In this document: positions 890-8,341 of the stretch, one piece after another
Numbering within the stretch: position 1 is the first letter of the stretch
Layout of the letters: each line of letters opens with the position of its first letter
Assembly (NCBI GenBank): GCA_001799195.1
Contig: MGSU01000193.1
Coordinates: 1 to 8,341, forward strand
From: Deltaproteobacteria bacterium RIFOXYA12_FULL_61_11
GTDB taxonomy: Bacteria; Bdellovibrionota_F; JAHFAK01; YA12-FULL-61-11
DNA length: 8,341 bases
Direction: 5' to 3'
Made by a program: the position numbers and the translations under genes
Notes under the pieces: model-generated
What the model was told of the DNA's origin: nothing
What the model saw: the letters and a program-made list of their open reading frames with translations, nothing else
Databases searched by the model: none

Positions 890-1113
890 AAGTAAATCCC
901 TACTATTGTTTCACTCTGGCCGATGTGAACAGAAGTTACTTGCCGGATGCTCATTATTGGATTTTTCTCAATCCCAACACCGCGCAAGGCGCGGACTTCT
1001 TGAAGATTGCGCTGCCTCCTACGCGCCGCTTTGACCCAAGACTGAATGCTTTCCGGGGCTCACCTCTTGCGCTTGATCTGCGACCGAGGTACATCGAGCA
1101 GGTGAACCCTTGA
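886..1113 (+). CDS. Short ORF spanning the composition break; probably a gene start fused to foreign sequence
   Basis: The ATG at 886-888 overlaps the stop of the membrane-protein gene (ATGA) and is preceded by AGGA at 872-875, ten bases away, so the start looks genuine. It encodes 75 residues beginning MKVNPYYCFTLADV. The first 28 or so residues lie in moderately AT-rich DNA. From about position 971 the DNA becomes GC-rich (30 G or C in 971-1020) and the remaining 47 or so residues are encoded in a composition like that of the right-hand cluster. The stop TGA (1111-1113) overlaps the cysC ribosome binding site. The simplest reading is that the N-terminus belongs to the left operon and was joined by chance in frame to unrelated sequence. 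The second half contains DPRLNAFRG, which faintly resembles the beginning of NlpC/P60-associated SH3 domains; I give this little weight. A genuine small gene is possible. Confidence 0.35.
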   Translation: MKVNPYYCFTLADVNRSYLPDAHYWIFLNPNTAQGADFLKIALPPTRRFDPRLNAFRGSPLALDLRPRYIEQVNP

Positions 1114-1118
1114 GGAGG
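1112..1118 (+). promoter_or_regulatory. Ribosome binding site of cysC
   Basis: GAGGAGG lies nine bases before the ATG at 1128, a near-ideal Shine-Dalgarno sequence. It decides the start: an in-frame TTG at 1110 sits on top of this site and so is unlikely to be used. Confidence 0.8.
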
Positions 1119-1127
1119 AACCCACTC

Positions 1128-1784
1128 ATGACCCCCAAGAGTGATCGAACCGACCTCGCGACCCGAGCGTTGAGCGAACCAGGAGCCAACCCGGCCTCGG
1201 CCCATCTCACCCGTCAGCCGGGCCAGGTCTCGAGGCAGGAGCGCGAGCGAGCCCTCGGGCAACCCGGTTTGACCGTCTGGTTCACCGGTCTCTCGGCCTC
1301 GGGCAAGTCGACCCTTGCCTCTGCTCTGGAACGGACCCTCGTCAATCGAGGCCGAGCGGTCTATTATCTCGATGGCGACAATGTCCGGTTGGGCTTGAAC
1401 CGCGATCTCGGCTTCAGCCATGAAGCCCGCAGCGAGAACATCCGGCGTATTGCCGAAGTCTCGAGGCTGTTCAACGATGCCGGGTTGATCGTGCTGGCCG
1501 CCTTCATCTCGCCCTACCGCGCCGACCGCGATCGGGCCAGAGAGATCGTCGGTCCTGCTTCATTCCTGGAGGTCTATCTCAGCGCCCCCCTCGCGGTGTG
1601 CGAAGCTCGGGATCCCAAAGGTTTGTATCGTCGGGCACGGCGGGGGGAAATTCCCGAGTTCACGGGCATTTCCGCGCCGTACGAAGCTCCCCTGGCGCCG
1701 GAGTTGATCCTCCCGGCCGAGATGTCCGTCGTGCAGGCGGTCGAGGCCTTGTTGGCGCTGCTGCTCAGTCGCGGCGTGAGTTGA
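1128..1784 (+). CDS. cysC: Adenylylsulfate kinase (APS kinase)
   Basis: This cytoplasmic enzyme phosphorylates adenosine 5'-phosphosulfate with ATP to make PAPS, the sulfate donor for sulfotransferases and for assimilatory reduction. The product is 218 residues, close to the usual size for single-domain CysC (about 200), with a charged N-terminal extension of about 45. Visible motifs are the P-loop GLSASGKST (54-62), DGDNVR (82-87), the helix HEARSENIRRIAEVSRLF (98-115), FISPYRADR (126-134), DPKGLYRRAR (162-171) and FTGISAPYEAP (178-188). All key positions look intact. There is no fused CysN or sulfurylase domain. No promoter is recognisable upstream, where the sequence soon runs into the composition break. 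The 3' end overlaps the convergent methyltransferase gene by 20 bases. Next to glycan genes, a role in polysaccharide sulfation is a reasonable inference, but neither cysD/cysN nor a sulfotransferase is in view. Confidence 0.95.
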   Translation: MTPKSDRTDLATRALSEPGANPASAHLTRQPGQVSRQERERALGQPGLTVWFTGLSASGKSTLASALERTLVNRGRAVYYLDGDNVRLGLNRDLGFSHEARSENIRRIAEVSRLFNDAGLIVLAAFISPYRADRDRAREIVGPASFLEVYLSAPLAVCEARDPKGLYRRARRGEIPEFTGISAPYEAPLAPELILPAEMSVVQAVEALLALLLSRGVS

Positions 1785-2427
1785 ACTGCGGAAATCCTCC
1801 CGAGGCGGTAGTTCCGGTCCCGATAAAGACCAGCCGGCGTTCGTTGGCGAATGGGCCGAGGGTATACCAAGGGAGATCCTGCCCAGCGAGCAGGGCTGCC
1901 GGTCGGTGGTGGTAGGGATAGCCCGGGGCCTCGACCACGTCGAGACACAGCAGGCCATGGGGGGCGAGGTGTTGGTCACAGATCCGACGGACGAGAGCTT
2001 CGGCTTCGGCGGGGGGCAGGTCGTGTAGCCAGTTCAAGGCCAGGACCAGGTCGAAGCGGCCAGGGGGGAGGTCGACGTCGAGGTTGCGGGTGTGGAAAGA
2101 AAGGTCGCCGGTTCCGGCATGATCGCCCCAAATACCCAAGAGAGAAGCCGCGGCGATGACCCGGGGATCCGGATCCCAGCCCAGCCGTTCTGTGAAGGGC
2201 AACCGGCGCAACAGATCGCCGAGACCGCAACCCAGGTCTAGGACTCGACCGCGCCGAGGTTCCGGGAGGGCTCTGGCGAGTTCGACCACGGCAGCGGCAT
2301 AATCCTTGGCCTCATAGGGGATACAGTGCCAAGCGTCGAAACCGTAGCGCAGGCGCAAGAGGCACCGCGCTCCTCGGGAGAGGCGCCGACGAAAGGCCCT
2401 CCGTACCTGCAGACGCTCATCGGGCAT
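1765..2427 (-). CDS. Class I SAM-dependent methyltransferase
   Basis: This is a Rossmann-fold methyltransferase of 220 residues. Motif I is VLDLGCGLG (62-70), the acidic residue of motif II is in GWDPD (83-87), and motif IV is FDLVLALNWLHDL (125-137). The stretch LAPHGLLCLDVVEAPG follows as the usual strand 5 and loop. The N-terminus is rich in arginine (RRAFRRRLSRGARCLLRLR), perhaps binding an acidic or membrane-linked substrate; this is inferred. I chose the ATG at 2427. It follows a weak purine run (GGGGA) and overlaps the deacetylase gene by 11 bases. The TTG at 2472 would extend the overlap to 56 bases. It is the last gene of the minus-strand cluster and meets cysC tail to tail, with 20 bases of shared coding sequence and no room for a terminator between them. 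The acceptor is probably a sugar or a glycolipid intermediate, judging only by neighbours. Confidence 0.85.
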   Translation of the reverse strand: MPDERLQVRRAFRRRLSRGARCLLRLRYGFDAWHCIPYEAKDYAAAVVELARALPEPRRGRVLDLGCGLGDLLRRLPFTERLGWDPDPRVIAAASLLGIWGDHAGTGDLSFHTRNLDVDLPPGRFDLVLALNWLHDLPPAEAEALVRRICDQHLAPHGLLCLDVVEAPGYPYHHRPAALLAGQDLPWYTLGPFANERRLVFIGTGTTASGGFPQFNSRRD

Positions 2428-3178
2428 GCTTTCCCCGTTCTCTCGCGCGACGAGCCAAGATGAGGGCTCCAAGAGCGTAATCCAATGGACCCCGCGACGA
2501 TGGGAGCGCCCCGGTCAAGAGCTCGTCGAGGCTGCCGAGCACTGCTGCGGAGTGCTCGTGGAGGAAGCTGTCCAAGGCCTCGAGGTCGCGTGGTCCAAGG
2601 TTGTCGGGATGCAGGCAGATCGTCCAGAAGCCCCAGGTCCTGGGGGTGGGAGTCCAGGTTTGTTGGGGTAACCACCGGAAACCGCAGCGGGAGAAGGGCC
2701 GCAGGGCAAGGCCATCGCTAATGCACCGTATCGGGGTGACCTGACGCAGCGCCGCAAGGGTGACGTGGTCCAGGCTGTGCCAGGGGGCAACGAACAGTCG
2801 CGGTTCCAGACCCTCGGTCCGGAACACGGTCAGGCCGGCGGCGAGCTTGCTGCGTTGCAGCCCGAGTGGTAGTCCGGCGAACTCCGAGGCTCGGTTGAAG
2901 GGCACCAGCCCTGCTTCCCGGGTGAGCTTGAGATGGTGGTGGCCGTGCAGCGCGAGCTCCCAACCCCGGTCGCGCCAGGTTCGCACCCTCGCCCAGAAAT
3001 CAGGGTCGGCCGGCGCTCGGCACAGCGTGGGATCGCGGTTGTCGGGAATGACGGCCACCAGGGGGCTGACCCCGTGCCGGTCGAGCAGGGCTTCGATCCG
3101 GGTCCAGGCGTTCAGGTCCATGGTCGGACAGGCGTCGTCGAGGCGGAGGAGGTAGCGTACCTGTTGGGGATGGTTCAT
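2417..3178 (-). CDS. Polysaccharide deacetylase-like protein (DUF2334 type)
   Basis: The 253-residue product has the layout of DUF2334 proteins, relatives of the NodB carbohydrate esterase fold. It begins almost at once with YLLRLDDACPTMD, giving the paired aspartates D14-D15. VAVIPDNRD (41-49) and the metal-binding pattern HGHHH (H78-x3-H82) follow. SEFAGLPL (98-105) and APWHSLD (131-137) complete the recognisable set. Such enzymes are thought to hydrolyse N- or O-acetyl groups from sugars using a divalent metal; the activity of DUF2334 members is mostly inferred from the fold. There is no signal peptide, so it would act in the cytoplasm, perhaps on a lipid-linked intermediate. The ATG at 3178 fits the domain start, but the bases before it are C-rich with no Shine-Dalgarno. 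A 43-base gap separates it from the Trp-rich gene upstream, with which it probably shares a transcript. Confidence 0.85.
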   Translation of the reverse strand: MNHPQQVRYLLRLDDACPTMDLNAWTRIEALLDRHGVSPLVAVIPDNRDPTLCRAPADPDFWARVRTWRDRGWELALHGHHHLKLTREAGLVPFNRASEFAGLPLGLQRSKLAAGLTVFRTEGLEPRLFVAPWHSLDHVTLAALRQVTPIRCISDGLALRPFSRCGFRWLPQQTWTPTPRTWGFWTICLHPDNLGPRDLEALDSFLHEHSAAVLGSLDELLTGALPSSRGPLDYALGALILARRARERGKHAR

Positions 3179-3221
3179 CGTGCGGGGGTTGGCTCGTGGG
3201 GGGGTTGGAGGAGCGGCGGGC

Positions 3222-3488
3222 TCAGTTCCTGGCCCAGACTTCCTTGGTCCAGGTCGTCGAGGTCTGGGCGACCCAGGGGTTCTTGCGGACCGTGTTCCAC
3301 ACGAAGTCCTCGAGCTGCTCGGGAGTCTCGGCCTTCACTTCGAAGCACATGTCCCAGTCGCCCATGGTGGTCCAGGCTCTCTTGACCGGTTTCCATTCCT
3401 TGACCCAGTCCCAGTTCTTCCAGTGGCCATTGGTGGTGTGGTTGTACTGGTCGTTCCATTTGACCCACAGGTGTGCGTTCCAACCCAT
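3222..3488 (-). CDS. Tryptophan-rich small protein resembling a stand-alone Lrp/AsnC ligand-binding (RAM) domain
   Basis: The product is only 88 residues. The second half reads like the ligand-binding half of Lrp/AsnC regulators: a strand ending TTMGDWDMCFEVKA (40-53), a helix TPEQLEDFVWNTVRKNP (55-71), then VAQTSTTWTKEVWA (73-86), matching the familiar pattern G-D-[YW]-D, E-A-x-x-P/L-x-x-L, P-x-V-x-x-T-x-T. The first strand would be NAHLWVKWN (4-12). There is no DNA-binding helix-turn-helix, so it is not an ordinary regulator. Thirteen residues are tryptophan (3, 8, 11, 23, 26, 28, 32, 39, 45, 64, 72, 80, 85), nearly 15%, which is extreme. Known stand-alone RAM proteins form dimers or higher rings and bind small molecules; a sugar, aromatic or redox partner here would be a guess. 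The start at 3488 is set by AAGGAGG five bases upstream. It lies between glycan genes but has an apparent promoter of its own. Confidence 0.7.
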   Translation of the reverse strand: MGWNAHLWVKWNDQYNHTTNGHWKNWDWVKEWKPVKRAWTTMGDWDMCFEVKAETPEQLEDFVWNTVRKNPWVAQTSTTWTKEVWARN

Positions 3489-3493
3489 GCGAT

Positions 3494-3500
3494 CCTCCTT
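3494..3500 (-). promoter_or_regulatory. Ribosome binding site of the Trp-rich RAM-like gene
   Basis: On the minus strand AAGGAGG stands five bases before the ATG at 3488. It is the strongest Shine-Dalgarno of the minus-strand genes here and picks 3488 over the ATG at 3503, which would overlap this site. Confidence 0.75.
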
Positions 3501-3542
3501 CATGGTTCGCGCTTCGGCCGTCTCGTGAGCGGCCTTGGTACA

Positions 3543-3571
3543 GTGATAGCGCGACCGCGGTTCTTGTGCAA
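3543..3571 (-). promoter_or_regulatory. Weak sigma70-like promoter candidate for the Trp-rich gene
   Basis: Reading the minus strand, TTGCAC (3571-3566) is followed after exactly 17 bases by TATCAC (3548-3543). The -10 box matches the consensus at four of six positions and the -35 at three of six, so the match is modest. The placement is sensible: just beyond the terminator-like hairpin and about 55 bases before the start codon at 3488. Chance occurrence cannot be excluded. Confidence 0.3.
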
Positions 3572-3573
3572 GC

Positions 3574-3598
3574 GACAAAGAAAGGGAGGCGGCTCCCC
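3574..3598 (-). terminator. Candidate intrinsic terminator after the GT4 gene
   Basis: On the minus strand GGGAG (3597-3593), loop CCGC, then CTCCC (3588-3584) form a five-pair stem, extended by one G-U pair, directly followed by the T-rich tail TTTCTTTGTC (3583-3574). It lies about 40 bases past the stop of the GT4 glycosyltransferase. The stem is short and the tail interrupted, so termination may be partial. Confidence 0.4.
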
Positions 3599-3610
3599 GA
3601 AGTGGGGGAG
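3593..3610 (-). other. Alternative hairpin competing with the terminator stem
   Basis: CTCCCC (3610-3605 on the minus strand) can pair with GGGGAG (3598-3593) around a six-base loop. The GGGGAG arm is the same segment that forms the first arm of the terminator stem, so only one of the two hairpins can form at a time. This is the geometry of an attenuator, though it could be chance in GC-rich DNA. Confidence 0.3.
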
Positions 3611-3638
3611 AGTGAGTTTGTCTATGGGTTTGAGCTGG

Positions 3639-4796
3639 TCACCGGTATAGGAGCGAGGCATAGAGGGCTTCGTAGGCGGCGAGTATGACGGCCGGTGCAT
3701 GGCGTTGTTCGGCCACGGACCGACCGGCTTGGCCCAGGCGCTTGGCCAGCTCGGGTTTGGTGAGCAGGTGATCGATCGCCGCGGCCAGTTTGCGAGGATG
3801 CTCGGGGGGAACCAACAGACCGGCCTGGCCGTGAGCGAGCAGCTCGGGCACCCCGCCCACGGAGGTGGCCACCACAGGTATTGCCCGGGCCATGGCCTCG
3901 AGCAGGGCATTGGGGGAGCCCTCGGCAGAGGAGGCCAAGACGACGATCGCGCTGGCGGCGAGGAGTTCGAAGGGGTTGTCGAGGCCGCCGGTCAAGAATA
4001 CTTTGTCCTGTAACCCGTTGCGTTCGAGGTCTTCCCGGAGCGAGGCGGCGTAGGCCTCGTCGGAGGGAGTGAGCGGTGCTCCTGCCAGGACGAGGAGCGC
4101 GTCGTCGGTTCGGACCAGCTTCATTGCCTTGAGAAGGTCGTGCTGCCGCTTCACGGGCCGGAGGTTTGCCAGGCAGGTCACTATGTTGCCTCCTCGCGGG
4201 AGACCGAGGCGGCTGCGCAGGTTCGCCGGAGCCTCGGGCAGGGGCATCGCGGGGAGGTCGACGGCATTGGGGATTACGGATATTCGGGAGGGAGCGAGAC
4301 CCTCGGCCGCGAGCGCGTGGTCACGCACCGCCGCGCAGTTGGCCACGAAATGGGCGGTGTGACGGTTGCGCCAGCGTTCGAAGATCGTGAGCGGGCGTTG
4401 GAGACGGTCATGTTGGAGGTTGCGCCGCTCGGCGAGGAAGGGGAGTTTCCCGACGAGGCGGGAAGCCAGGCCGTCGAGCACCTGGGTGCCGGTCAGCCGG
4501 GACGGGGCGTTGTGCAGGAAGGAGTGTACCAGGGAGATGTCTTCGCGTTCGAGGAGAAGCAGCAGTTTCAGCAGATCGAAGGGCCGAGCAGGCCGGAGTT
4601 GCAGGCGATCGACCGCGATACCCGCGGCCTCGAGGGCTGATCTGTGAGGGCCGTCCTCACCGACATTGACCACGTGAACCTTAAACCGTCGGCGGTCCAG
4701 GCCGAGCGCCAGGGTGCAGAGGTGTTTCTCGGTCCCTCCGAGGGCGAGGCCGGGAGCCAAGAAGAGGAGGTTGTGGGTGGGGAGTGCTGCAACCAT
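3639..4796 (-). CDS. GT4-family glycosyltransferase
   Basis: This is a retaining glycosyltransferase with two Rossmann domains (GT-B fold), 385 residues, normal for GT4. The N-terminal domain starts HNLLFLAPGLALGGTEKHL (8-26), with the glycine-rich acceptor loop typical of the family. The linker region carries ISVIPNAVD (172-180). The donor domain has CLANLRPVKRQHDLL (208-222) with the phosphate-binding Arg/Lys pair, and the EX7E signature E292-GSPNALL-E300, followed by PVVATSVGGVPELL and GQAGLLVP. It transfers a sugar from a nucleotide donor to a growing lipid-linked glycan at the cytoplasmic face of the membrane; the sugar cannot be told. I chose the ATG at 4796, one base after the stop of the methyltransferase gene (TGACATG). 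The frame stays open upstream to 4991, but that extension overlaps the neighbour and is not domain-like. Confidence 0.92.
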   Translation of the reverse strand: MVAALPTHNLLFLAPGLALGGTEKHLCTLALGLDRRRFKVHVVNVGEDGPHRSALEAAGIAVDRLQLRPARPFDLLKLLLLLEREDISLVHSFLHNAPSRLTGTQVLDGLASRLVGKLPFLAERRNLQHDRLQRPLTIFERWRNRHTAHFVANCAAVRDHALAAEGLAPSRISVIPNAVDLPAMPLPEAPANLRSRLGLPRGGNIVTCLANLRPVKRQHDLLKAMKLVRTDDALLVLAGAPLTPSDEAYAASLREDLERNGLQDKVFLTGGLDNPFELLAASAIVVLASSAEGSPNALLEAMARAIPVVATSVGGVPELLAHGQAGLLVPPEHPRKLAAAIDHLLTKPELAKRLGQAGRSVAEQRHAPAVILAAYEALYASLLYR

Positions 4797-4797
4797 G

Positions 4798-5595
4798 TCA
4801 ACGGATCCTGGTGCATCGGAAGTAGCGGGTATAGGTGGTCGTAGCCTGGACTTCGAAGCTGAGTTCGGGGTGTCGTGCTTGATAACGTTCGAAACTTGCT
4901 GGAATTTCATCGACATGGCAACCCCAGTCGTCAAAGGCCAGGTAGGCTGTCGGAGCAAGGGTAGCACGATCGAGTAGGTCCAGGGCTGCATCGCAGGAAC
5001 TGCCCAGGTCGCAATCGAGGTGCGCCAGGACGATGTTCGAGGTCAAGGCCGTGAGTTGGGCTCTGACCTCGGGAGCCTCGAAGAGACCTTCGATGAGATG
5101 CAGGTTGACTGCCGAGAGGTCCCGAAGATGGTGGTAACGGAGGAGATTGGCGCACACGGTCGAGACGCTGCTGTCCGAGAATTGGCCTTGGTGCCAGACC
5201 GTAGAACTGGTCGGCAGGCCTTTGAAACTGTCCACCCCGATGAGGCGGCGCGAGCCGAGACCGACCGAGGTCCGGAACAGGTGCAGCCATGCAAGGCTGA
5301 AGCCCTGGTAGGTGCCGAACTCGACGAAATCTCCGGGCAATCGGTGCTTGGCGATGTCCTCGAAGATCGAACGGAGATGGAGCAACCTGCCAAACTGGTG
5401 CTCGGCCTCTTGCAGTCGGAGTCTCGTGGCGAGGCGGTGTCCCGAGGAGGTGAGCATCCACGGACGAATGGTCCACCAGCAGAGGGGGGCGGCGAACAAC
5501 CAACGGTCGAGACGGTGCCGGCGATGGTCCACTGCCTTGGAAAGCCGTTGCACGATCCGTCCCCCGACCGGGGGTGTTGGGGTCGCTTCTGTCAC
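4798..5595 (-). CDS. TylF/macrocin-type O-methyltransferase
   Basis: The 265-residue product has the TylF family signatures: GDFVEFGTYQG (88-98) as the SAM-binding loop, IGVDSFKGLP (119-128), the acidic segment HLDCDLGSS (192-200) and FDDWGC (221-226). In TylF and its relatives the acidic residues of the later motifs coordinate a magnesium ion beside the sugar hydroxyl that is methylated. A cytoplasmic enzyme that O-methylates a glycan or its nucleotide-sugar precursor is therefore likely. The start is a GTG at 5595 whose last bases overlap the flippase stop (GTGA). A GAGGGGGG run ends four bases before it. A TTG at 5664 in the same frame would overlap the flippase gene by 73 bases and is less likely. 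The first 60 residues are basic with a hydrophobic patch (RWLFAAPLCWWTIRPWML), perhaps for membrane attachment. Confidence 0.88.
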   Translation of the reverse strand: MTEATPTPPVGGRIVQRLSKAVDHRRHRLDRWLFAAPLCWWTIRPWMLTSSGHRLATRLRLQEAEHQFGRLLHLRSIFEDIAKHRLPGDFVEFGTYQGFSLAWLHLFRTSVGLGSRRLIGVDSFKGLPTSSTVWHQGQFSDSSVSTVCANLLRYHHLRDLSAVNLHLIEGLFEAPEVRAQLTALTSNIVLAHLDCDLGSSCDAALDLLDRATLAPTAYLAFDDWGCHVDEIPASFERYQARHPELSFEVQATTTYTRYFRCTRIR

Positions 5596-7202
5596 GGTGC
5601 CCCCCTCGGCAAGGTTGGGGGTGCGTCCGAGCCGCCTTGACGACCCGGGTATTTTCGCTTCCAAAAGCGGTCAAGGCTTTGTGCGAACAGTGTGCATTCG
5701 GGAAGCCGGAGCCAGCGGCAGACCCCGCAGTACAACCCCGCAAAGAGCATGAAGGTGAGGGCCACGAGCGCGAGGAGAACCAGGGTGGGCTGGACCTGGG
5801 GGCGAGGGAGAACGTCGTCGAGCAGCAGGCGGGCTAAGCCGACCAGCGGAAAGGCCAAGGAGCCGAAGAGGAGCAAACGCGAACCAAGATGCCGGTAGGG
5901 CAGTGGAGCGTGCCGGAGGTGGAGAATGCAACCCAGGAGTACTACCGAATAGCTTGTGAGGAGCGTCTGGGCCAGGGCCACTCCCTCGAAACCGAGGGTG
6001 GCTTCCAACCACAGGTTGAGACCGATGGCGACCCCGAGGGCGGGCAGGCAGGTATACAGGCCAATGATCGAATCCCCGAGGGCGTAGTAGACCCGGGTGG
6101 TGAAATAGTGGGCCGAGGTGGCGATCAGACCGAGACTGAGCCAGCGCAGCGCCAGGTAGCTCTGCTCGACGCTGTGCTGATCGAAGGCGCCGCGGCGGAA
6201 GAGCAAGGCCAGGACGAGGTCGCCGAAGAAGAACAAGTAGGCAGAGAGAGGCACGACGAAGAACCAGGTCAGACTCACGGCTTCAACGCAGCGGTCCACC
6301 GCGGCCTTTTTGCCGTGTTTGGCCGCGAGCGCGGAGAAGTCGGTCAGCATGACCTTGGCGACTCCCCCGTGGAGCGGACCCGAAACCCATTGCACCACGC
6401 GTTCGGCCCAACCCACGAAGGCTAGGCCGCCGTGAGTCCGACCGGTGAGCAGGAAACGGGCCAGGAGCTCGGTTGCGCTGTCAACGAGTTGGGTCACGTA
6501 GAACGGCCACAAGAGGTGCCAGAAGGCCGCGAACTGGGAGCGGGGCAGGGTCAGGTACCAACGGGCGACGAGCACGCCCCGACGGATCAGCATGCCCGCG
6601 ACGAGGACCCACAACACCCCCTGGGCCACGTCGTTGGCCAGGACCAGGGCGAGGATGCCGTGATCGGAGAACGCCAGGAGCAGGGCGATGAGGATGAGAG
6701 AGCGCAACACGTTCTCGAGGAGGGCCGGTACGGTGAAGACGGCGAAGGCTTGCAAGAGGCTGACCTGTACCGAGTGGAAGGAGAAGAAGAGGTAATAGGG
6801 CAGCAACAGGGGCAGGAGGTCCGTGGCAAGGGCAGCGGTCGGCCCGTCGAAGCGGGTCAGCCGTTCCACGGCGAAGGGGGCCAGGAAGTAGAGCAACCCG
6901 GCAGAGCCCAGGGCAAGGAGGGTCGACCAGAAGGTGATGAACCCCACGAAACGCGGAACCGCGCTGGGTTCCGAGGTGTCGAGACCCACCAGTACCGGTA
7001 CCGCGGCCAGACCCCAGTTGCCGAGTACGTAACCGTGCAGCTGGGCCAAGAGCACCATGGCCCAGAAGAAGGCCTCGAGCTGGGCTCCGGTGCCGAAGCG
7101 GTAGGCTACCAGCACGGATACGGCCAGGTTGAGCGGTTTGCCCAGGAGATAGGAGAAGGTGGTGGTGAGAGTCGAGCGGCGGACGCTCTCGGTCCGGATC
7201 AT
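5592..7202 (-). CDS. MurJ/MviN-like polysaccharide or lipid-linked sugar flippase
   Basis: The 536-residue product is hydrophobic throughout, with roughly thirteen or fourteen likely transmembrane segments, matching the MOP-superfamily exporters. It fits MurJ/MviN better than Wzx. The segment LFRRGAFDQHSVEQSYLALR, followed by WLSLGLIATSAHYFTTRVYYALGDS, mirrors the MurJ stretch with RGAF, A-L-R and the R-x-F/Y-Y-A-L-x-D pattern. TTTFSYLLGKPLNLAVSVLVAYRFG near residues 13-37 matches the first helix. Its role would be to flip an undecaprenyl-linked glycan from the cytoplasmic to the periplasmic face. The neighbours suggest a surface polysaccharide rather than peptidoglycan lipid II; this is inference. 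The ATG at 7202 overlaps the stop of the glycosyltransferase gene (ATGA), with no Shine-Dalgarno, so translation is probably coupled. The frame is open further upstream to 7385, but that part is arginine-rich and an artefact of the overlap. Confidence 0.88.
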   Translation of the reverse strand: MIRTESVRRSTLTTTFSYLLGKPLNLAVSVLVAYRFGTGAQLEAFFWAMVLLAQLHGYVLGNWGLAAVPVLVGLDTSEPSAVPRFVGFITFWSTLLALGSAGLLYFLAPFAVERLTRFDGPTAALATDLLPLLLPYYLFFSFHSVQVSLLQAFAVFTVPALLENVLRSLILIALLLAFSDHGILALVLANDVAQGVLWVLVAGMLIRRGVLVARWYLTLPRSQFAAFWHLLWPFYVTQLVDSATELLARFLLTGRTHGGLAFVGWAERVVQWVSGPLHGGVAKVMLTDFSALAAKHGKKAAVDRCVEAVSLTWFFVVPLSAYLFFFGDLVLALLFRRGAFDQHSVEQSYLALRWLSLGLIATSAHYFTTRVYYALGDSIIGLYTCLPALGVAIGLNLWLEATLGFEGVALAQTLLTSYSVVLLGCILHLRHAPLPYRHLGSRLLLFGSLAFPLVGLARLLLDDVLPRPQVQPTLVLLALVALTFMLFAGLYCGVCRWLRLPECTLFAQSLDRFWKRKYPGRQGGSDAPPTLPRGAP

Positions 7203-8341
7203 CGAACAGGGTCGGCCAGGAAGGAGGAACGGACTCTCGGAGGACCGGCTGCCCTCGCTCGAACTAGTCCTTCGAGGTCTTCGAGCAGGAGGGCTAGGGT
7301 ACGTCTCCCGTCGAGTCGTTCGCTCACGAAGGCCCGACCTGCCGCGGCGACCCGTTCGGTGACCTCCGGATGCTCGCGGTGCCAAGCGATGACTTCGAGC
7401 AGGTGGTCGAGGCTGCCGTCATGCCCGAGATAGTGCTTCCCCGGCTGGAGCCCGAGGTCGGCGTACATCGGTCCGGGTACGCCGAGGTAGGCGCAACCGC
7501 AGGCCATCCCTTCGACAAAGCCGATGCCGGGCAAGTGGTTGAGCTCTTCGGGAGCGAGGAACATCTGGTACTGGTTGTAGCGTTCGACCAGGTCGAAGGA
7601 GAAGTAGCCCTTCTGTTTGGCGCCGAAGAGATTGTGCAAGAGCTTGAGCCTGCGGCGGAGATAGGGTTCCTTGCGGTCGATTTCCTGGTACCGGACCTCC
7701 TGGTTGTAGAAGCTGATCGAGGAGTCGATCAACCCGCGCAGCTTGTCCCGGTCCTCATAGATAGCCTTGCGCAGAGGGTGGAAGGTGCGTTGCCCGAAGT
7801 AGTCGATGAAGGGATGGTTGCGCTCGGTATCGGCGAGCAGTTCGTAGGTGCCGGTGGCCAGACAACAGGCCTTCCTCTCGGCGAAGGGTCTCTTGGCCTG
7901 GAAGCGCTGTTGGGGGATGAACGGCAGGAGGTACACGGACCCTTGGTACCAGGGGAAATGGTGGCGGAAGTAGGCCCCTCGGGACAGGTCGGCCTCGGCG
8001 GTGAAGAGCAGCGAGGCCGCCGCGGGTTCGGCATTGCGGGAGATCGCGGGAGTGCCGAGCATGTAATGGGTCAGGTGGACCAGCTTCAGGGCACTGCTGG
8101 CGAGCAGTGTGCGAAACGAACTCGGCCCGTTCTCGTCGAGGGTGCTACGAGAGAAGAGAAAGAGCACGTCCGTGGGCGCGAGCTGCTCGGGGCGATGGAG
8201 GAGGTCGAAGCTGCGAGGGTCGAGGTGGTTGAGGCGGCACCAAGCCAGGAATTCGCAGAGAGACACGGTTCGGCGAACGGTCTTGCTGCGCTGGAGCTGC
8301 TCGGGGAAGCTGTGCTGCTCGAGATCCAGATAGACCACGAT
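7199..8341 (-). CDS. Glycosyltransferase (group 1-like C-terminus), 5' end outside the window
   Basis: The frame is open to the right edge, giving 380 visible residues. The first visible residues (IVYLDLEQHSFPEQL) look like a typical first strand, so only a few residues may be missing. The C-terminal part carries GIGFVEGMACGCAYLGVPGP, the donor-site loop of GT-B enzymes (one conserved glutamate, then A-C-G-C/T). It is followed by GKHYLGHDGSLDHLLEVIAWHREHPE and V-A-A-A-G-R-A-F-V, the usual tail in which sugar-transferase group 1 and CgeB-like proteins end. The middle is less conserved, with many aromatic and charged residues (about 190-260). No full EX7E motif is seen, so I cannot place it in a GT family. 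It is the most upstream visible gene of the minus-strand unit and overlaps the flippase in an ATGA junction. The GT-B call is good; the sugar and linkage are unknown. Confidence 0.78.
   Translation of the reverse strand: MVVYLDLEQHSFPEQLQRSKTVRRTVSLCEFLAWCRLNHLDPRSFDLLHRPEQLAPTDVLFLFSRSTLDENGPSSFRTLLASSALKLVHLTHYMLGTPAISRNAEPAAASLLFTAEADLSRGAYFRHHFPWYQGSVYLLPFIPQQRFQAKRPFAERKACCLATGTYELLADTERNHPFIDYFGQRTFHPLRKAIYEDRDKLRGLIDSSISFYNQEVRYQEIDRKEPYLRRRLKLLHNLFGAKQKGYFSFDLVERYNQYQMFLAPEELNHLPGIGFVEGMACGCAYLGVPGPMYADLGLQPGKHYLGHDGSLDHLLEVIAWHREHPEVTERVAAAGRAFVSERLDGRRTLALLLEDLEGLVRARAAGPPRVRSSFLADPVR

Follow-up and report, generated by a model that had tools for sequence, protein, structure and literature searches.

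The ligands of RAM proteins, amino acids or metabolites such as 2-oxoglutarate, sit between dimers, and the proteins change their oligomer state; that of FFRP-DM1 from Pyrococcus horikoshii shifts with Ile or Met, and the stand-alone members have no settled role (PMC2995911). FFRP-DM1 (2e1a/2z4p) is the best profile and structure match of the protein described here and, like it, is RAM over its whole length with no helix-turn-helix (HTH). The two are only ~20% identical in the structural alignment, however, and DM1 has K, E, M or Y at the sites that are tryptophan (Trp) in our family. STS042 of Sulfolobus tokodaii (2zbc), another stand-alone RAM protein and the best single-sequence match, agrees in length and fold, but it is 26–27% identical in the structural alignment and lacks the Trp set. 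The bacterial stand-alone RAM protein TTHA0845 of Thermus thermophilus (2djw) is similar in structure (VIA Z 10.7); its identity is 18%, and the sequence searches did not bring it up as a close relative. Lrp/AsnC regulators (E. coli Lrp 2gqq, AsnC 2cg4, NMB0573 2p5v) share the topology through their C-terminal RAM domain, together with its G-x-[YFW]-D and T-x-T/S motifs, whereas the HTH is absent from the Trp-rich family, whose members carry 11–16 Trp (median 13) against 0–1 in 26 ordinary RAM domains. AhbA/B and NirDL are also built on the Lrp/AsnC architecture, and their initial annotation was as regulators (PMC4145669); they re-use a RAM-type dimer for a non-regulatory task. Unlike them, the Trp-rich proteins have neither the HXYXR motif (PMC4145669) nor an HTH remnant, and each is a single-copy protein rather than one of a pair.

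The window analyzed here is a stretch of 8,341 nucleotides from Deltaproteobacteria bacterium RIFOXYA12_FULL_61_11 (contig MGSU01000193.1). The gene of interest and the features around it, all on the minus strand, are as follows.

2417..3178, minus strand: downstream neighbor, DUF2334 / polysaccharide-deacetylase-like, 43 bp gap, not recurring at other loci
3222..3488, minus strand: coding sequence of the Trp-rich stand-alone RAM protein, 88 aa (translation, PF01037, family conservation)
3494..3498, minus strand: ribosome-binding site GGAGG, 5 bases before the ATG (sequence)
3512..3538, minus strand: CCAAG-N16-CCGAAG, 7/11 against the attack-phase FliA consensus, at the usual place and spacing of the family; not significant alone (shuffle p 0.29)
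3583..3598, minus strand: weak terminator-like hairpin with a T-rich tail, between the glycosyltransferase gene and the RAM gene (two such hairpins in the region, against 1.9 expected by chance)
3639..4991, minus strand: upstream neighbor, GT4-type glycosyltransferase, 150 bp gap, not recurring at other loci

The open reading frame is coding and not an antisense artefact, since relatives occur in about 77 genomes and dN/dS between near relatives is 0.005–0.05. Its translation bears out the composition given in the initial annotation, 13 Trp in 88 residues (positions 3, 8, 11, 23, 26, 28, 32, 39, 45, 64, 72, 80 and 85); at least 13 Trp would be drawn with a binomial probability of ~1e-10 at a Trp frequency of 1.3% and of 2e-6 at 3%. 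The Lrp/AsnC ligand-binding domain PF01037 matches residues 28–79 at 31.2 bits, above the cut-off of 25, and no HTH family was found at useful scores in Pfam or NCBIfam, as that annotation had claimed. NCBIfam gave the protein no name, and Rfam gave no match in the window.

Structure prediction agreed with this assignment. The AF2 model of the window protein (pLDDT 88.6, pTM 0.76) places strands at residues 3–11, 35–40, 47–53 and 73–82 and helices at 27–31 and 56–67, and the model of a 16-Trp member of a second subfamily (pLDDT 85.0, pTM 0.69) has the same order of strands and helices and the same structure matches. The best Foldseek matches were stand-alone RAM or Lrp proteins, including DM1 2e1a (E 1e-5, TMt 0.85) and STS042 2zbc; VIA-align gave Z 10.5–11.6 against the best RAM proteins, and the PDB profile matches were 2e1a (2e-7), 2cvi and 2zbc. 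According to the model, the protein is one complete beta-alpha-beta-beta-alpha-beta RAM domain with no DNA-binding part, filling all 88 aa and falling within the size range of stand-alone RAM proteins (the RAM domain alone, ~75–98 aa). We regard its fold and family membership as virtually certain. The initial annotation had proposed a stand-alone RAM protein with the RAM pattern in its second half: the identity held in AF2, Foldseek and VIA-align alike, and the location did not, as the whole protein adopts the RAM fold. The NikR metal-binding domain, which resembles the model in fold only (Z 8–9), was set aside, the family having no invariant His/Cys nickel ligands.

A single-sequence whole-genome search of 386 genomes across the domain recovered one clear orthologue, with 49% identity and most Trp positions kept (locus L003, on contig C1 of the single-contig genome G268); beyond this genome and the window, the set held only ordinary RAM proteins. 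Starting from this orthologue, a search of its phylum, identified as Bdellovibrionota through shared contigs, found the gene in 70 of 368 genomes, and the fuller 52-row profile found it in 69/368, always in a single copy and at E 1e-12 or better. The gene was also present in a second large phylum (7 of 232 genomes), which we take as Chlamydiota, a label that is our own assignment (a Rhabdochlamydia MAG falls within it), and in one of the two genomes of the window's own phylum, the other being without it. The named records from a 19-row alignment search of genome contigs were nearly all Bacteriovoracaceae, Halobacteriovoraceae, Bdellovibrionales or Oligoflexia. The second subfamily (WQAWVHVKWKPGTP...WSTTG-x-WDCSIWLDV) occupies other families of Bdellovibrionota and the seven presumed Chlamydiota genomes (loci L159 and L161–L166). 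Members are ~80–98 aa long across the family, and PF01037 matched 19/19 and 32/32 of those scanned.

Single-sequence scans of genome contigs and viral contigs with the window protein gave no match, nor did a two-row alignment scan of viral contigs. A tblastn search of plasmids and phages returned no family member, only an ordinary Shinella Lrp; PHROGs gave no match for the family, and viral structures yielded weak or generic matches only. Weak genome matches at L004–L007 and at L087, L089 and L090 were excluded as ordinary RAM domains or unrelated stretches. Two records carry doubtful names: L086, labelled Verrucomicrobia, seems misnamed, and L072, from a MAG titled Streptomyces griseus, is a Bdellovibrionota-type copy; G544 of the Bdellovibrionota set has the same protein on a contig of the same number and at almost the same place, so that the title is probably wrong. 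In the literature library searched, no paper linked Trp richness to the AsnC ligand-binding domain or described such a family in Bdellovibrio. The Trp-rich proteins form a discrete family in at least three phyla, unnamed in the libraries searched, in keeping with the earlier remark that no named family has this composition. The distribution in Bdellovibrionota is patchy, so this is not a core predation gene; many MAGs of the phylum may be non-predators.

The Trp positions are conserved among the homologues, as the initial annotation had suggested checking. Invariant over both subfamilies are W11, W26, W45, W72, G43, D46, E60 and T76, and W3, W80 and W85 are nearly so (in three members, W3 is present once an in-frame upstream ATG is taken as the start). 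Compared with ordinary RAM domains, Trp replaces charged residues at several sites (K28, E37, K50, and E or G at 72) and stands at 26, 32, 39, 45 and 80 where these have aliphatic or aromatic residues. The strand pair 37–50 illustrates the exchange: it is E37-K50 in 19/26 ordinary RAM domains, W37-W50 in 36 of 49 subfamily-1 members, G37-W50 in 14 of 17 members of subfamily 2, where a Trp has also shifted to position 6, and R37-E50, still charged, in the window protein. The RAM motifs are kept, the G-x-[YFW]-D hairpin as an invariant G43/W45/D46 and the strand-4 T-x-[TS] with T76 invariant and T or S at 78. T76 and T78 correspond to T132 and T134 of ST1022 (end-anchored numbering), mutants of which are PDB entries. 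The only polar residues invariant over both subfamilies are D46, E60 and T76, with K10 nearly so; the family column table holds no invariant His, Cys, Tyr or Arg. Codon comparison shows a family under strong purifying selection (dN/dS 0.005–0.051 in twelve near pairs with unsaturated dS). In a small gene tree, with few forks resolved, the window protein stands by itself on a long branch, and the tree does not place the origin of this copy.

Placed on the model, W11 lies at the end of strand 1, W26 at the start of helix 1, W45 in the hairpin between strands 2 and 3, and W72 at the start of strand 4. Reading from strand order in the standard ferredoxin-like topology, we infer that these four invariant Trp lie at one pole of the fold, beside the G-x-W-D turn.

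The published consensus for attack-phase promoters in Bdellovibrio bacteriovorus is TTAAG-N16-CCGATA and is ascribed to FliA (PMC3627812), a sigma factor that appears essential in this species and drives attack-phase genes (PMC5430801). In an unbiased test of 5-mers upstream of the family genes, with 383 intergenic upstream regions from these loci as controls, CCGAT ranked first (19/63 vs 14/383, p 1e-9), mostly 31–45 bases before the ATG. Aligning the regions on CGAT revealed a T 21 positions earlier in 23 of 31 and, after it, A-rich positions; this box had not been used for choosing the sequences. A TTAAG-N16-CCGATA-like motif lies ~31–60 bases before the ATG at L003, L042–L071 and other subfamily-1 genes, with a perfect 11/11 match at L070. 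When the FliA consensus was scored at every spacing from 10 to 22, Bdellovibrionota subfamily 1 peaked at N16 (23/48 vs 38/332 controls, p 1.7e-8), with 15 second; among non-redundant members the count at N16 was 18/33 (p 3e-8), the upstream sequences of related genomes being not fully independent. A sigma-28 score with loose spacing was weak against mononucleotide shuffles; the tests described above, against real intergenic controls, were clear. About half of the subfamily-1 genes fall short of the promoter score, and no significant signal was found in subfamily 2 (15 genes), the chlamydial copies or the window. Because the motif is confined in this way, we consider attack-phase expression quite probable for Bdellovibrionota subfamily 1 alone, judging by its promoters.

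We propose that the Trp-rich stand-alone RAM family is a cytoplasmic, oligomeric ligand-binding module with an aromatic pole, made in the attack phase in predators, and give this reading as a whole a probability of about 0.5. Its core, a ligand-binding oligomer with altered surfaces, is suggested by the retained G-x-W-D and T-x-T/S motifs and the Trp-rich pole; by analogy with known RAM proteins, the balance tips slightly in its favor. The protein would form dimers and then rings of dimers, like the known stand-alone members, and would bind a small molecule between dimers, the likely ligand being an amino acid or some other small metabolite of partly aromatic or hydrophobic character. The four invariant Trp could provide an aromatic pocket or interface at one end of the fold. 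In Bdellovibrionota, FliA (sigma-28) would most likely drive transcription of subfamily 1 during the free-swimming attack phase, and the protein might serve there as a sensor or buffer of nutrient state (feast/famine), acting through protein contacts and not through DNA. The same protein mechanism could operate in the window's genome, the FliA promoter step being proposed for Bdellovibrionota subfamily 1. In a more far-reaching version, which we consider decidedly unlikely, the attack-phase protein would be a feast/famine sensor, FliA-controlled and Trp-caged, for prey-derived amino acids or aromatic metabolites and would time the switch from attack to growth through protein contacts, with the chlamydia relatives and the window's lineage using the same module in lifestyle switches of their own.

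Several other accounts have to be weighed against this proposal. The Trp residues could be structural glue only, packing in the dimer barrel and at ring contacts of a very stable small homo-oligomer for scaffolding or capping, with no specific ligand. The replacement of several charged positions by Trp, the exchange of E37-K50 for W37-W50 and the subfamily-2 Trp at position 6 would fit, as if total aromatic packing outweighed exact place. Pure packing would not, however, need the ligand motif G43/D46/T76/T78, of which G43, D46 and T76 are kept without exception, and the window copy retains a charged pair at 37–50; we therefore judge this account unlikely, though it deserves some weight. The precedent of AhbA/B and NirDL, and the appearance of 4czd, 4czc and coproheme decarboxylases further down the structure rankings, would allow an enzymatic or cofactor-binding function in a protein of the dimeric alpha-beta barrel type (like the sirohaem decarboxylase AhbA/B), whose active site would be a cavity lined by Trp where subunits meet. 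The scarcity of invariant polar residues, none of them His, Cys, Tyr or Arg, and the absence of HXYXR make such a role very improbable. We are equally skeptical of a hetero-oligomer partner of full-length Lrp/AsnC regulators that modulates their DNA binding: DM1 and FL11 of Pyrococcus offer an in vitro precedent (PMC2995911) and many carriers also encode one Lrp-type protein, but five carriers (G409, G578, G581, G647 and G748; 94–99% complete) have no other PF01037 protein at E 1e-5, the Trp-rich protein is the sole PF01037 match in the window's genome (87% complete), and its residues are far from those of Lrp (Trp for K/E). The carriers without Lrp argue against a general role of this kind.

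The initial annotation had also suggested a possible tie between the protein and its neighbors, as a sugar- or aromatic-sensing or scaffolding subunit for adjacent glycan enzymes, while allowing that it might be unrelated to them. Around the window copy lie glycosyltransferases, the DUF2334 deacetylase-like protein only 43 bp away, methyltransferases and a MurJ-like flippase, which is what such a role would lead one to expect. Across 58 loci, however, no neighbor recurs beyond close relatives, and none of the window's neighbors is found at the 57 other loci; family genes and their neighbors share a strand as often as they oppose each other, and the polysaccharide cluster accompanies the window copy only. 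Given these observations and the weak terminator-like hairpin upstream, the polysaccharide context is most likely incidental, and we give a glycan-related role little credence. We have still less confidence in the Trp codons as a gauge of Trp supply, at which translation would stall or fail when Trp is low. This idea is invited by the 11–16 Trp codons in fewer than 100 and by the lifestyle of the lineages, which obtain amino acids from their prey or host (an amino-acid auxotrophy has been described for Halobacteriovorax, PMC12724312), but the Trp lie at fixed structural positions, the rest of the fold is conserved, and no constant gene follows downstream.

Within one set of lineages, a fold known for amino-acid sensing has thus given up residues at charged, hairpin and core sites and gained up to 16 Trp in fewer than 100 aa; such a Trp load is costly to synthesize, and the family is under strong selection. 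The attack-phase promoter motif offers a testable starting point for asking how Bdellovibrio-like predators sense their nutrient state, and the case illustrates that a small open reading frame which annotation would call 'hypothetical' can belong to a coherent family spread over three or more phyla.

Two minor observations concern the surroundings of the family genes. In several Bacteriovoracaceae (L044, L045, L047, L049, L051, L057, L060 and L088), genes resembling those of an RND-type transporter, an outer-membrane protein and a lipoprotein-sorting-like protein lie nearby as a set on the opposite strand, probably as plain synteny. In the window itself, bases 900–8341 fit the host genome (GC 0.64, tetranucleotide r 0.90), whereas bases 1–880 have a GC of 33.5% (0.335) and a tetranucleotide r of 0.30 against it. 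This segment holds two open reading frames, one weakly DUF6201-like, and matched nothing in E. coli genomes or plasmids; it resembles either an insertion or an assembly chimera, with no bearing on the RAM finding.
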